Shown here one piece after another: positions 44,425-49,592 of a stretch of 64,000 nt of DNA. The notes under the pieces were generated by a model, which saw only the letters and a program-made list of their open reading frames with translations, did not search any database and was not told where the DNA came from. A program made the translations under genes and the position numbers. The stretch spans positions 62,001 through 126,000 of the forward strand of contig NZ_JAUXXZ010000052.1 in the NCBI RefSeq assembly GCF_030684675.1, in the 5' to 3' direction. Source of the DNA: Daejeonella sp. Lineage in GTDB: Bacteria; Bacteroidota; Bacteroidia; Sphingobacteriales; Sphingobacteriaceae. Position 1 is the first letter of the stretch. Each line of letters starts with the position of its first letter.

Positions 44425-45636
44425 ATGGCCAAGCAAATAAACTTAAAACCATTCAGAGATTTCTTCCTGTCCGAACAAATTGGCGGCATTATTCTACTTT
44501 TCTGCGTTATTATCTCCCTTTCTGTTGCAAATTCCAGTTTAGCTAATTCATTTGAGAATTTACTTGAGACGAATCTAGGGTTTAGTACTTCAAACATTCA
44601 TTTGGAATATTCAATTTCACTTTGGATCAATGACGGACTGATGGCCATATTTTTTCTGCTCGTTGGCCTGGAAATCAAGCGTGAAATCATTGAAGGAGAA
44701 TTATCAAATCCAAAAAAAGCTACAATGCCGATTATGGCTGCTATTGGCGGAATGCTTTTCCCGGCCGCTATCTATGCTTTTTTTAATACAGGAACCTTAA
44801 CTGCAAATGGTTGGGGAATTCCAATGGCTACTGACATAGCTTTTGCCCTTGGTATCATTTCTCTACTAGGTAAACGTGTGCCTGCAAGTCTCAAAGTATT
44901 TCTGGCTGCTTTGGCAATTGCCGACGATCTTGGCGCAATCCTCGTAATTGCCCTGTTCTACACCAATGAACTTCATTGGATGCAACTTCTATACTCGGGC
45001 GGAATTCTTGCAATATTGATTATTATGAATCAATCTGGAGTGAAAAAACTGATCTTTTACATCATTCCCGGCATATTTTTATGGTATTTTGTACATCATT
45101 CTGGAATACATGCAACCATTGCCGGTGTTTTGCTTGCATTAACAATTCCCTCTAATCCTGTTAAGGATACCTCTCCTCTTGAAAAGCTTGAACATTTTAT
45201 AGTCAGACCGGTAAACTTCCTCATTATGCCCATTTTCGCACTGGCAAATACGAATATCAGGTTTGAAGATAAAATGATTGATGGTCTTTATAGTCCGCTT
45301 GGATTGGGCATTCTACTTGGGCTTTTCGTAGGTAAACCAGTCGGCATTTTCATATTTTCCTGGCTTTCTGTTAAATCAGGACTCGGGAGCCTGCCTTCGG
45401 GAGCGAACTGGAAGCACATTATAGGTTTAGGATTTTTAGCAGGAATAGGATTTACAATGTCAATTTTTATTACTATGCTATCGCTTGATAATCACGAATT
45501 CCAGATTGAAGCAAAATTTTCAATTCTCGTGGCTTCTGTTCTCTCAGGTATCATAGGGTATATTTTTCTTAATGTACTACATAAGAAAAAAATAAAAGGT
45601 TCTGATTCCCGAATGATTAAGGTCGAATCGATCTGA
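44425..45636 (+). CDS. nhaA: Na+/H+ antiporter NhaA
   Basis: A 403-residue antiporter with about 12 membrane helices. The functional pair is 'LAIADDLGAILVIALFYTNE' (the Asp-Asp of helix V), and the assembly region is 'GWGIPMATDIAFALGIISLL' then 'GKRVPASLKVFLAAL'. 'MIDGLYSPLGLGILLGLFVG' with 'LGFLAGIGFTMSIFITMLSL' near the end complete the family blocks. It exports Na+ for H+ at alkaline pH. Its 3' end overlaps the convergent trpA stop by 20 nt. Confidence 0.97.
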   Translation: MAKQINLKPFRDFFLSEQIGGIILLFCVIISLSVANSSLANSFENLLETNLGFSTSNIHLEYSISLWINDGLMAIFFLLVGLEIKREIIEGELSNPKKATMPIMAAIGGMLFPAAIYAFFNTGTLTANGWGIPMATDIAFALGIISLLGKRVPASLKVFLAALAIADDLGAILVIALFYTNELHWMQLLYSGGILAILIIMNQSGVKKLIFYIIPGIFLWYFVHHSGIHATIAGVLLALTIPSNPVKDTSPLEKLEHFIVRPVNFLIMPIFALANTNIRFEDKMIDGLYSPLGLGILLGLFVGKPVGIFIFSWLSVKSGLGSLPSGANWKHIIGLGFLAGIGFTMSIFITMLSLDNHEFQIEAKFSILVASVLSGIIGYIFLNVLHKKKIKGSDSRMIKVESI

Positions 45637-46387
45637 TAAATTCAGGAATTCTTTCCATCGCATTTTCTGTATCGAGAAACTTCACAAAAGCACTTCCAAC
45701 AATTGCCCCACGGGTATACTCAGCAGCTTTATTAAAACTCTTCACATCAGAAATACCAAAGCCTATCATCGTAGGATTTTTAAGCTGCATATCCCTGATT
45801 CGTGAAAAGTAGGCATCTGCCTCGTTTGAAACTGTCAGATTTTTACCCGTAGTCGAAGATGAGGAAAGCAGGTAAATAAATCCATTACTGAGATGGTCAA
45901 TCTTACGAATCCGTTCTTCTGAAGTCTGGGGTGTAACCAGAAATATATTACTCAGCTTGTTTTTAATAAAATTATCCTTGTACAGATTTTCATATTCATA
46001 CATTGGAAGATCAGGCACGATCACCCCGTCCACTCCTACCTCTGAACAGGAATCACAAAAATTCGCAACGCCATATTGCAAAACCGGATTGACATAACCC
46101 ATTAATAAGACCGGGATGGATACACGTTTACGCAGATCTTTAAGTTGCTGAAAAAGAACTTTCAGATTCATTCCATTCTGAAGAGCAATATGGGAACTGT
46201 GCTGAATAACCGGACCATCCGCCAGGGGATCGGAATATGGAAATCCAATTTCAATAAAATCTGCACCTGCTTTTTCTACTGCTTCAGTGATATCAAGGGT
46301 ACTATTCAAATTGGGATACCCTGCAGTAAAGTATATTGATAAAAGTGCATCCTTTTTATCCTGAAATAATTTATTAAGTCTGTTCAT
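45617..46387 (-). CDS. trpA: Tryptophan synthase alpha subunit
   Basis: A TIM-barrel lyase of about 256 residues that cleaves indole-3-glycerol phosphate. Conserved regions: 'LLSIYFTAGYPNLNSTLDIT', the catalytic Glu and Asp in 'ADFIEIGFPYSDPLADGPVI', 'LLMGYVNPVLQYGVANFCD' and 'DGVIVPDLPMYEYENLYKDN' with 'FLVTPQTSEERIRKIDHLSN' later. Start is the ATG at 46387; the ATG at 46393 is an alternative. It is the last gene of the trpD-F-B-A operon and overlaps the nhaA 3' end. Confidence 0.96.
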   Translation of the reverse strand: MNRLNKLFQDKKDALLSIYFTAGYPNLNSTLDITEAVEKAGADFIEIGFPYSDPLADGPVIQHSSHIALQNGMNLKVLFQQLKDLRKRVSIPVLLMGYVNPVLQYGVANFCDSCSEVGVDGVIVPDLPMYEYENLYKDNFIKNKLSNIFLVTPQTSEERIRKIDHLSNGFIYLLSSSSTTGKNLTVSNEADAYFSRIRDMQLKNPTMIGFGISDVKSFNKAAEYTRGAIVGSAFVKFLDTENAMERIPEFIRSIRP

Positions 46388-46446
46388 GAGCATTCTTATA
46401 TTGATATACCGGATTTTTCATCCGGCAGGGCATCAGGTATTTTAAA

Positions 46447-47655
46447 TTATAAGTTAAAGTAATTCATGTAGGTATCCAGATCTTTATCTCCCCGACCTGA
46501 TAAGCAGATCACAACAGATTCTTTACCTGTAAAAACCATCTTTTCTAAATGTGCGAGTGCATGAGCACTTTCAATCGCCGGAATTATTCCTTCGAGTTCA
46601 GCACAAAGTCTTCCGGCAATCATTGCCTCTTCATCAGTTGCACTAACATATTCCCCACGGTTTTCCTTAAATAAATGGGCATGCTGCGGACCAATACCCG
46701 GATAATCCAGTCCGGCAGAAATTGAATAAGGTTCAATAACCTGCCCGTCTTCTGTTTGCATTAATATAGAACGGCTACCATGTAATACCCCTTCCTTACC
46801 CAATGCAGTAGTTGCAGCAGACTCCCCACTATTCACTCCCAGGCCTGCAGCTTCAACTGCAATCAGTCTCACATCCTCATCATCCAGGAAATGGTAGAAC
46901 ATCCCCATAGCATTGCTGCCTCCACCTACACAAGCTATAACGATATCCGGATTTTCAGATCCTGTACGCTCCATAAGCTGAAGTTTAGTCTCTTCAGAAA
47001 TGATGGATTGAAAACGGGAAACCATGTCGGGATAAGGGTGCGGACCTACCACAGATCCAATAATATAATGCGTATCCACAGGGTTATTGATCCAGTCGCG
47101 CATGGCTTCATTCGTAGCATCTTTCAGGGTCTTACTTCCTGAAGTTGCAGGAACAACTTTTGCACCCATCATCTTCATTCTGGCAACATTTGGTGCTTGC
47201 CGGGCTATATCAACCTCTCCCATATAAACCACGCATTCCAAACCCTTTAAAGCACAGACCGTCGCAGTTGCAACACCATGCTGACCAGCTCCGGTTTCAG
47301 CAATAATCCTCTTTTTACCAAGCCGTTCGGCAAGCAGAATCTGCCCGATCGTATTATTGATCTTATGTGCACCGGTATGGTTTAAATCTTCCCTTTTCAG
47401 ATAGATTGTAGTTCCATACTTTGCAGATAAACGCTCAGCATGAAATAATGGCGAAGGTCTGCCAACATAATCCCTCAAAAGCATTTGGAATTCATCCTGA
47501 AAACCAGGCTCATATATGATGTCAAGATATCGCTTGCGAAGCTCTTCTACGTTAGGATAAAGCATTTCGGGTATATACGCTCCGCCAAAGTCACCAAAGT
47601 AACCTTCCTTGCTTACACCCCATTTTACCGAACTTTTTATAAATTCTCTGTTCAT
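46447..47655 (-). CDS. trpB: Tryptophan synthase beta subunit
   Basis: A 402-residue PLP enzyme that joins indole and serine. The PLP lysine is in '[20 protein letters not shown]', and '[20 protein letters not shown]' and '[20 protein letters not shown]' follow. The phosphate loop is '[20 protein letters not shown]' and '[17 protein letters not shown]' ends it. Starts with '[20 protein letters not shown]', the standard trpB1 type. Lies between trpF and trpA. Confidence 0.97.
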
Positions 47656-47674: not shown

Positions 47675-48331
47675 TCAGGATATTTTACTCGCCCTGATCA
47701 ATTGAAAGGCAGATCTTAAACTATCTATATTCTTTAAACCAGGCTCTGTTTCAAACCTGCTATTCAGATCCAGGGCATATATTTTTTTTGTTGCTAAATT
47801 AAATAAGCCGTCGATATTATCAGGACTTAAACCACCGCTTAGAAAAAATTGCTTTTCTCCATCATACTGATCCAAAATAGTCCAGTCGAATGCAATACCT
47901 GAGCCGCCATGTTCTGAAGTTTTGGTGTCAAATAAAAAGTAATCCACTACCTCATTATACGCTTCGAGGGTCGAAAAATCAAAGCCGGGATAAACTCCAA
48001 AAGCCTTGATCAATTCAATATGCTTGTCGGGCAGGACTTCATTAAGCTTTATTTTCAAACTTATGCAATATTCAGGTGACTCTGCTCCATGAAGTTGTAC
48101 AGCACTTAAATCGAAATCGACTACCTTTTTAATAACATCTTCCTCGCGTTCATCGACAAAAACTCCGGTTAAACTAATCGAAGCAGGCAATGAAGCAAGT
48201 ATATTTTTATCCGGATCTGCTACATAACGCTTCGATTTAGGATAAAAAATCAAACCCATATAATCAGGTTTTAACTCGGCAAGGCTAAGTATATTTTGCG
48301 GATCTCTCATTCCGCAAACCTTAATTTTCAT
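47675..48331 (-). CDS. trpF: Phosphoribosylanthranilate isomerase
   Basis: A 218-residue beta/alpha barrel: catalytic Cys in 'MKIKVCGMRDPQNILSLAEL', 'YMGLIFYPKSKRYVADPD', 'LTGVFVDEREEDVIKKVVDF', 'VQLHGAESPEYCISL' and 'SEHGGSGIAFDWTILDQYDG' with the Asp. The end block is 'FFLSGGLSPDNIDGLFNLAT' and 'YALDLNSRFETEPGLKNIDS'. It starts inside the trpD stop (ATGA overlap). In many Bacteroidota trpC precedes trpF; here trpC is missing. Confidence 0.95.
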   Translation of the reverse strand: MKIKVCGMRDPQNILSLAELKPDYMGLIFYPKSKRYVADPDKNILASLPASISLTGVFVDEREEDVIKKVVDFDLSAVQLHGAESPEYCISLKIKLNEVLPDKHIELIKAFGVYPGFDFSTLEAYNEVVDYFLFDTKTSEHGGSGIAFDWTILDQYDGEKQFFLSGGLSPDNIDGLFNLATKKIYALDLNSRFETEPGLKNIDSLRSAFQLIRASKIS

Positions 48332-49314
48332 GACAATAAGCTATTAAAACTTCTTAAAGCCATACCGCTGTTCAGGGACTCTTCAGCCTCATAAAAACAA
48401 TCCGCAAAAGATTTTTCAGGTTTTATTGTGCGGATTGCTACTGCTGCATTGCAAAGAACAACATTGTTTTGCTCTGTACTACCTTCTCCATCAAGCACTG
48501 CTTTAAAAATTTCGGCTGATTCCTGAACAGTACTTCCACCACCAATTTTTGCAGGATCAATTTTTTCAAAACCCATATCGGAAATTGAATGAATATGTTC
48601 CCCTGCAGGAGAAAAGGTTTTAAAATCGCAGGTTAATGAGATTTCATCATAACCTTCCAATGCATGTACGATGGTATAGCCGGTTTTAGATTTCTGATAG
48701 AGATAGGAATACAAACGGGCAAGTTCCAGACTAAAAACTCCAACCATCTGATACTTTGGCCGCGCAGGATTTACCAATGGTCCAAGCATATTAAAAAAGG
48801 TTTTGACACCCAGTTCTTTGCGGATAGGCGCAACTGTTTTCATTGCGGCATGAAAAAGCGGAGCATGTAAAAAGCAAATTCCGGCTTCATCCAGACTCTT
48901 TTTCAGGTGATCAATATCATTCCTGAATTTATAACCCAGGTATTCCATCACATTGGAGGAACCACAACCTGAAGAGACTCCATAATTTCCATGTTTTGAC
49001 ACCTTATAACCCGCACCTGCAACCACAAAAGAAGCTAAGGTGGAAATATTAAAAGTATCCTTACCATCACCGCCTGTACCGCAGAGATCAATAAGCTCAT
49101 ACTCACTAAGGTCTGTTTTAAGGCATAAATCCAGCATTCCATCCCGAAATCCCTCAAGTTCTTCAACTGTAATACTGCGCATGCAATAGGCCGCCATAAA
49201 TGCAGCCATTTGAGCGGCATTATACTTACCAAGGGTAATGTTTGTGAGTATTTCCTTCGACTCTTCACGACTGAAGGTTTTGTGTTCAAATAGGTGATTT
49301 AGTATCTTCTTCAT
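48328..49314 (-). CDS. trpD: Anthranilate phosphoribosyltransferase
   Basis: A 328-residue enzyme that adds phosphoribose to anthranilate. Active loops: 'LIDLCGTGGDGKDTFNISTL' (PRPP binding, near residue 78), 'YKVSKHGNYGVSSGCGSSNV' (S-K-H-G-N-x) and 'FLHAPLFHAAMKTVAPIRKE' with 'LGVKTFFNMLGPLVNPARPK'. It is the first structural gene after the attenuator at 49400-49536, so all four trp genes should respond to Trp-tRNA charging. Confidence 0.96.
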   Translation of the reverse strand: MKKILNHLFEHKTFSREESKEILTNITLGKYNAAQMAAFMAAYCMRSITVEELEGFRDGMLDLCLKTDLSEYELIDLCGTGGDGKDTFNISTLASFVVAGAGYKVSKHGNYGVSSGCGSSNVMEYLGYKFRNDIDHLKKSLDEAGICFLHAPLFHAAMKTVAPIRKELGVKTFFNMLGPLVNPARPKYQMVGVFSLELARLYSYLYQKSKTGYTIVHALEGYDEISLTCDFKTFSPAGEHIHSISDMGFEKIDPAKIGGGSTVQESAEIFKAVLDGEGSTEQNNVVLCNAAVAIRTIKPEKSFADCFYEAEESLNSGMALRSFNSLLS

Positions 49315-49399: not shown

Positions 49400-49428
49400 A
49401 AAAAAAGGGTTGCCTTGTGGCAACCCTT
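49400..49428 (-). terminator. Attenuator terminator (segments 3:4) ahead of trpD
   Basis: Minus-strand arms AAGGGTTGCC (49428-49419) and GGCAACCCTT (49414-49405), loop ACAA, followed by seven T (49406-49400). A perfect 10-bp GC-rich stem. It lies 86 nt before trpD and 28 nt after the leader-peptide stop codon, where an attenuator terminator should be. The antiterminator would pair 49478-49466 (inside the leader ORF) with 49430-49418. Confidence 0.93.
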
Positions 49429-49455
49429 AGTTAAATAATTCTTTTATATAGAAAA

Positions 49456-49536
49456 TTACATACCTCTAGCGATTGCCAAATGTTCTTCCATTTGCCACCA
49501 CCAGATCGTATATATTGTATTCTTGTTCATCTTCAT
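49456..49536 (-). CDS. trpL: trp leader peptide with three consecutive Trp codons
   Basis: A 26-codon ORF, ATG at 49536, TAA at 49458-49456, ending IWWWQMEEHLAIARGM. Codons 12-14 are TGG-TGG-TGG (49503-49495). An alternative ATG is codon 3. Directly after the Trp codons, CAAATG (49494-49489) can pair with CATTTG (49482-49477), forming the 1:2 hairpin. The second arm overlaps the sequence TGGCAA-TC that can pair with the terminator 5' arm (2:3). Ribosome stalling at uncharged Trp codons would cover segment 1 and allow 2:3, preventing termination. A near-consensus -7 box (AAGTTTTG, 49574-49567) lies upstream. Confidence 0.92.
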   Translation of the reverse strand: MKMNKNTIYTIWWWQMEEHLAIARGM

Positions 49537-49592
49537 AACAAAGATGAATAAACTTTTCCTTAGCACCAAAACTTTAAAGTATTTTTAACAAT

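Follow-up and report, generated by a model that had tools for sequence, protein, structure and literature searches.

Organization of the trpDFBA locus and its leader

The window analysed here, the whole stretch of 64,000 nt, carries trpD, trpF, trpB and trpA on its minus strand, and between trpD and a divergent YitT-family gene lies a leader of approximately 130 nt, read from the sequence on the same strand. The genes and leader components, with the basis of each assignment in brackets, are the following.

48328-49314, minus: trpD, anthranilate phosphoribosyltransferase (Glycos_transf_3 and Glycos_trans_3N, context)
47675-48331, minus: trpF (PRAI)
46447-47655, minus: trpB (PALP; size and operon context)
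45617-46393, minus: trpA (Trp_syntA)
from 49593, plus: YitT-family gene, divergent (profile match)
49539-49570, minus: promoter-like pair, TTTG (49570-49567) and CATCTTTG (49546-49539), spacing 20 nt (sequence)
49456-49530, minus: leader peptide ORF MNKNTIYTIWWWQMEEHLAIARGM, 24 codons plus TAA (second ATG conserved)
49508-49514, minus: outer stem, 5' arm TATATAC (93.3% of cells paired in 17 genus leaders; in the minimum free energy, MFE, fold)
49495-49503, minus: three consecutive Trp codons TGG TGG TGG, putative sensor codons (sequence)
49489-49494, minus: segment 1, CAAATG, immediately 3' of the Trp codons (sequence, genus alignment)
49477-49482, minus: segment 2, 5' part CATTTG, partner of segment 1 (sequence, alignment, swap test)
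49466-49478, minus: antiterminator strand TGGCAATC..TAG, overlapping segment 2 (sequence, alignment, partial fold)
49457-49463, minus: outer stem, 3' arm GTATGTA, overlapping the leader stop codon (genus alignment, MFE fold)
49405-49428, minus: intrinsic terminator, a 10-bp hairpin whose 5' arm is the antiterminator partner (nine pairs 100% paired in 17 leaders)
49400-49406, minus: terminator T run, seven T, the first two within the stem (sequence)

Bacteroidetes promoters comprise a TTTG box upstream of a TAnnTTTG box, with a spacing between the two. The TAnnTTTG sequence is given as the Bacteroidetes promoter in a passage of PMC6414381, and CATCTTTG matches it at seven of eight positions. 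Within the family sample described below, YAnnTTTG occurs no more than 45 nt from the leader ATG in 102 of 129 trpD leaders, 65 of which place it 8-11 nt from that codon. The window likewise has 8 nt between its TAnnTTTG-like box and the conserved leader ATG (49530-49546), a spacing common in the family, so that the 5' UTR should be very short and the start near-leaderless.

The leader ORF, which ends in ...IWWWQMEEHLAIARGM, has its stop codon TAA at 49458-49456, 141 nt from the trpD ATG (49314). A preliminary description of this locus had given the ORF 26 codons, as the upstream ATG (49536) would make it. That codon is retained in one near relative (L005, TrpD 95% identical) and is replaced by ATC in the closest relative found (L004, TrpD 97% identical); because of this replacement we take the second ATG, 49530, as the conserved start. 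The short ORF with its WWW run thus stands, and its length is probably 24 codons.

The Trp codons, segments 1 and 2, the terminator and an antiterminator of eleven pairs had likewise been proposed, and the coordinates and pairings of all of them were reproduced from the sequence. The hairpin formed by segments 1 and 2 (hereafter 1:2) proved longer than had been drawn, since an outer stem (49514-49508 with 49463-49457), absent from the earlier account, extends it and encloses the Trp codons. The antiterminator (2:3) joins 49478-49466 to 49430-49418 through eight consecutive pairs (one of them G-U), a 2x2 internal loop and three further pairs. The terminator consists of the arms AAGGGTTGCC (49428-49419) and GGCAACCCTT (49414-49405) around the loop ACAA, with a predicted energy of -16.9 kcal/mol. 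At the last Trp codon, TGGCAA (49497-49492) repeats the antiterminator core TGGCAA (49478-49473), and both copies could pair with the terminator arm.

Folding of the whole leader RNA gave an MFE of -44.3 kcal/mol (z = -7.8; none of 200 shuffles as good), in a structure that buries the Trp codons and segment 2 within one long stem. When a partial transcript was folded from which segment 1 is missing and in which the 3' arm of the terminator is incomplete (49488-49416), segment 2 paired instead with the terminator 5' arm, at -16 kcal/mol and z = -3.1, a fold equalled by 1 of 200 shuffles.

Conservation of the leader among Sphingobacteriaceae

The family sample comprised 151 Sphingobacteriaceae genomes, in 135 of which trpD was found; two C-terminal trpD pieces (G032 and G144) were left out, and the 133 upstream regions with the 5' end of the gene present were examined using a custom-made ORF and hairpin picker. 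In L054 and L063 the region taken lay farther upstream, and in place of L085 the terminal part of a different contig from that genome (L200), presumed to hold its leader, was examined. A Trp-containing leader ORF followed by a terminator occurs in 129 of these 133 upstreams, and 121 have WW or WWW. Its absence from orthologous leaders had been named beforehand as an observation that would speak against attenuation. The longest Trp run is three codons in 103 leaders, two in 18 and one in eight; the last group comprises six with WCW, WRW or WLW, one with a single Trp (L020) and one picker error (L117, where the WWW ORF starts with TTG). Outside the Trp run the peptide, of 13 to 24 residues, differs by eye between genera, while the pairings persist.

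Background frequencies were low. Of the 64 window ORFs with a length of 100 aa or above, one only, trpD, has upstream of it a Trp run of at least two codons with a terminator, and three more have a single Trp; base-shuffled trpD upstreams (n = 128) yielded no Trp run and four single Trp codons. Together with the z score of the leader fold, these frequencies bear out the earlier estimate that a WWW run and its pairings would seldom arise by chance. A genome-wide pattern search for other TGGTGG leaders returned 178 matches, versus 87 for the reversed pattern.

The four trpD upstreams that lack the leader are L194 and three from a single genus, g3 (L096, L100 and L121). In two of the latter, L096 and L100, the terminator hairpin before trpD is kept and the Trp leader ORF is gone, and the trpE leaders of this genus (L175, L178, L180) have isolated Trp codons instead of a run; on sequence grounds the pattern looks like decay or rewiring of attenuation. 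Members of another genus, g14 (L054 with L197, L063 with L198, and L064), have sequence that appears repeat-like by eye between the attenuator and trpD, and their leader ORFs end approximately 345 to 465 nt before the gene, versus 141 nt in the window.

Comparison of the competing pairings

Two alignments were used to examine the pairings, one of 17 of the 18 leaders from the genus of the window (L011 was left out), and one of 25 of the 94 distinct hairpins from other genera. The swap and masking tests excluded four leaders that are retained in the family counts of 129 (trpD) and 47 (trpE): L117 and L090, for which the wrong ORF or hairpin had been picked, and the trpE leaders L192 and L187, with a wrong ORF. 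All permutations and shuffles ignore relatedness.

Within the genus, 93.3% of cells are paired in the outer stem, 87.3% in the 1:2 hairpin and 100% in the terminator. The overall proportion of 94.3% and the nine cells changed on both sides were each reached by none of 500 shuffles; four pairs have a change on both sides, a number that 19 of the 500 shuffles attain, and 99 attain the observed number of pair types. The 25 hairpins from other genera have 95.4% of cells paired, a percentage favoured by their having been hand-picked for one register, as well as 21 cells in which both sides changed, and none of 500 shuffles equals either value; their four pairs with a change on both sides were equalled in 204 of 500 shuffles and their pair types in 285. 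For some pairs more than one kind of change is seen, GC becoming UA as well as AU, and AU becoming GC as well as UA. Because the leader stop codon sits within the hairpin loop in 24 of the 25 (the exception is L088), the 3' arm is free of constraint from the peptide.

Hairpin halves were also swapped among 127 trpD leaders. The 1:2 halves of a leader pair with one another at a mean of -9.39 kcal/mol, versus -5.75 for permuted halves (0 of 5000 permutations as low), and the result is unchanged when only the 109 distinct hairpins are used. The 1:2 hairpin therefore covaries among orthologous leaders, where a lack of conserved pairing had been named beforehand as evidence against attenuation.

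The antiterminator behaves differently. In the trpD leaders 94.0% of its cells are paired and no pair has changed on both sides; the swap test for trpD is weak (-10.95 versus -10.68 kcal/mol, 99 of 5000 permutations as low), and that for trpE leaders strong (0 of 5000). Its trpD core, GGCAA/TTGCC, is almost fixed, and its pairing is stronger than that of base-shuffled segments (mean z -2.1). As judged from these alignments, the trpD antiterminator is conserved and near-invariant, without covariation. The earlier proposal of three mutually exclusive pairings fitting the classical model is supported by compensatory change for 1:2, with the qualification that the antiterminator is near-invariant.

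Predicted effect of a ribosome on the leader

The consequence of ribosome position was explored with a folding model of the nascent RNA, in which a ribosome masks its footprint, reaching 18 nt upstream and 11 nt downstream from the first base of the A-site codon, and the readout is the cost of freeing the terminator 5' arm. Averaged over 127 trpD leaders, this cost amounts to 8.6 kcal/mol when the A site holds the first Trp codon and to 8.4 when it holds the last; with the stop codon there it falls to 2.5, the value also obtained with no ribosome. In 126 of 127 trpD leaders, and in 42 of 45 trpE leaders, the better of the first and last Trp positions exceeds the stop position by 2 kcal/mol or more; for trpD, either position alone does so in 125 of 127. 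In this model, a ribosome on the Trp codons is predicted to favour the antiterminator, reproducing the earlier suggestion that stalling there frees segment 2 and blocks the terminator.

A codon-by-codon scan across the family placed the cost at 6.1 kcal/mol when the ribosome is two codons short of the first Trp, at 8.0-8.6 between one codon short of it and four past it, and at 6.9 and 2.7 when it is five and six codons past it, respectively; since the cost stays high until five codons after the first Trp, stalling a few codons past the run would work as well. For the window leader itself the cost is 7.4-8.8 at the Trp codons and 9.0 and 9.8 at the next two; it drops to 1.7-2.9 over the codons EHLA, returns to 6.3-7.2 over the final five codons and is 4.3 with the stop codon in the A site, versus 1.7 with no ribosome. 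The contrast is below the family average, and the late rise is a point against the simple picture; perhaps, with the ribosome far downstream, the second TGGCAA (49497-49492) pairs with the terminator arm.

A second leader upstream of trpE

In the same genome trpE, trpG and trpC lie on another contig (C81), and a second Trp leader of the same architecture precedes trpE. This leader, MNIKQNTANWWCTLEKGAGNRYFDQF, has a WW run and its own terminator, AACCCGACG...CGTCGGGTT.

L033:1291-1371 (contig C81), minus: trpE Trp leader (ORF and terminator; possible 9-pair antiterminator by eye)

The separation is general in the genomes surveyed: of 61 family genomes, 50 yielded trpE, which is split from trpD in all 50, on different contigs in 42 and on one contig at least 1.1 Mb apart in eight. 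One upstream region whose flank is cut by a contig end (L147) was left out of the count; of the 49 readable ones, 47 have a Trp-containing ORF and a terminator (the ORF being wrongly picked in L187 and L192), with WW or WWW in 38. The two misses, L148 and L171, were scored as such despite a WWW ORF with a non-ATG start. A covariance model of the trpD leaders of the genus, run over nine trpE leaders, gave weak matches, one with an E-value of 0.003 and the others with 0.04, 0.16 or no clear match. Five relatives outside the family (L285 and L287-L290; Cyclobacteriaceae, Salinimicrobium, Algoriphagus and Litoribacter) have a frame of 188 to 246 codons that stops 4 to 68 nt before trpD and whose end resembles, by eye, that of TrpG from the window genome. 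Because these outside relatives carry a TrpG-like frame next to trpD, the split of the pathway looks like a trait of Sphingobacteriaceae.

We lean towards viewing these loci as a family-wide regulon with twin attenuators, composed of the trpE operon (trpE-G-C here) and trpDFBA, in which trpD would have a leader of the Bacteroid-trp kind (see below) and trpE another Trp leader, equipped with a terminator and an antiterminator of its own. Both halves would read the same tRNA signal and could be set to different tryptophan sensitivities.

Relation to Bacteroid-trp and to other attenuators

The leader had been put forward as previously unannotated. That is accurate for this locus, where RF01692 (Bacteroid-trp, "Bacteroidete tryptophan peptide leader RNA") has no match at gathering score in the window or elsewhere in the genome, the window leader itself reaching 27 bits against a cut-off of 49 (E = 0.6). 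As a statement of novelty it claims too much, since RF01692 already describes leaders of the same kind and, in related genera, attains its gathering score before trpD. Over the 151 family genomes it gave a match at E ≤ 0.001 in 17, of which 16 lie directly upstream of trpD and the 17th (G015) at a contig end; the cut-off was exceeded in eight genomes, seven directly upstream of trpD and the eighth at a contig end. Twelve other permissive Rfam matches in the window were taken for chance.

Conversely, the covariance model from the genus of the window recovered 10 of 12 RF01692 loci outside the family, all in family f4, at E ≤ 0.0024 (one more gave 0.074 and one no match), and in its own genome the trpD leader is the sole match below E = 0.3. 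From a sample of 296 genomes of the phylum, in 27 of which RF01692 exceeds its cut-off, the genus model matched 12 genomes at E ≤ 0.001, the matches listed including eight genomes of the family (two of them in the model) and four of other families. Two matches in G013 (L320, L321) were rejected, each being by eye a plain terminator behind an unrelated gene. At the four loci of other families (L316-L319, from families f2, f4 and f5), WWW leaders with terminators were seen by eye before trpE-like genes, three of them outside the set matched by RF01692 in the phylum sample. Of the RF01692 loci inspected, two of family f4 have trpE downstream; one of family f11 has a PALP (trpB-like) gene, after which comes a trpE-like start.

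The positional orthologues and reciprocal model matches indicate that the window leader is homologous to RF01692. Both are Bacteroidetes leaders that precede trp genes and enclose tandem UGG codons in a long hairpin; they differ in that the window copy scores below the cut-off and precedes the trpD of a split pathway. The leader is thus real without being a new kind, a relative of an already catalogued Bacteroidetes RNA, and is distinguished by its formal miss of the Rfam cut-off and its twin-operon setting.

Comparison with Escherichia coli trpL was made by architecture. The E. coli leader has two Trp codons, alternative 1:2, 2:3 and 3:4 pairings and a terminator before the first gene, and controls trpE. 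The window leader shares the short ORF with consecutive Trp codons, the three pairings and the position of the terminator, and differs in having three Trp codons, a segment 2 that lies inside the ORF, a promoter box near the ATG, and trpD rather than trpE under its control. At the level of the operon a likeness exists to Pseudomonas putida, which has a split trp pathway with more than one operon under attenuation, in another phylum and with another split point; trpE and trpGDC are both reported as attenuated (Olekhnovich and Gussin 2001).

Weinberg et al. (2010; PMC2864571) list Bacteroid-trp in their Table 1, and a search of the main text found neither tryptophan nor leader peptides mentioned; a Flavobacterium psychrophilum paper remarks on its resemblance to the E. 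coli Trp leader (PMC6414381). A map of Bacteroides thetaiotaomicron (PMC7366714) records long 5' UTRs with short ORFs reminiscent of leader peptides. Among the papers listed by searches of largely open-access literature, none deals with a Sphingobacteriaceae trp leader. Until their Firmicutes case, Naville and Gautheret stated in 2010 (PMC2965389), they were aware of leader-peptide systems solely in Proteobacteria and Actinobacteria.

Proposed mechanism and alternatives

An ORF with tandem Trp codons precedes a trp gene; an intrinsic terminator lies between this ORF and the first gene; and the 1:2 and 2:3 pairings are mutually exclusive, with 2:3 (which shows no covariation) excluding the terminator. 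From these features the leader is very probably a classical transcription attenuator of trpDFBA, mediated by a ribosome on a Trp leader peptide. RNA polymerase would start just 5' of the leader ORF. With ample charged tRNA-Trp, the ribosome would pass all three Trp codons, and after its release, or where no ribosome had loaded, the leader would refold to the long 1:2 hairpin; segment 2 being hidden, the terminator would form and transcription would stop near 49400. With charged tRNA-Trp scarce, the ribosome would stall on the Trp codons and mask segment 1, and the released segment 2 would pair with the terminator 5' arm, so that no terminator forms and trpDFBA is transcribed. The parts, their pairings, their conservation and the 1:2 covariation in this scheme come from sequence, and the shift in pairing on masking of the Trp codons from the folding model; activity of the promoter, translation of the ORF, coupling of transcription to translation and the response to tryptophan are what we infer.

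Terminated leaders and leader peptides may have functions of their own, as is described for a trans-acting trp leader peptide of Sinorhizobium meliloti (PMC7298713), and the RNA of approximately 130 nt or its peptide might here be the actual product, working elsewhere as an sRNA or a small protein, and attenuation a by-product. A weak match to the Bacteroidetes sRNA family FopS over the terminator (20.4 bits, below the threshold of 56) points in that direction, but its paired portion is simply the terminator hairpin, and a peptide that differs by genus outside the Trp run while the pairings persist argues against a trans-acting product; we regard this explanation as very improbable. Marginally less credible still is a terminator that is constitutive, or that senses a protein or a ligand other than the charging of tRNA-Trp, with the Trp codons incidental. 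Such an arrangement would resemble two of the three genus g3 genomes (L096 and L100), whose terminator hairpin stands before trpD without a Trp ORF. Incidental Trp codons would, however, hardly account for the runs in 121 of 133 trpD upstreams, and in the family mean the predicted structure flips only with a ribosome around those codons; a search of the window for a T-box, a riboswitch or any other Rfam family gave none at gathering score, which speaks against a sensor of another kind.

Implications

If ribosome-mediated attenuation does operate at this leader, these Bacteroidota would couple translation to transcription tightly enough to sustain it. The family also offers a deep comparative set for an RNA that the current Rfam model mostly misses there, its cut-off being exceeded in eight of 151 genomes versus a leader in 129 of 133 trpD upstreams. 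A split regulon with two separate Trp leaders would, moreover, constitute a natural test of how attenuators diverge after the breakage of an operon.
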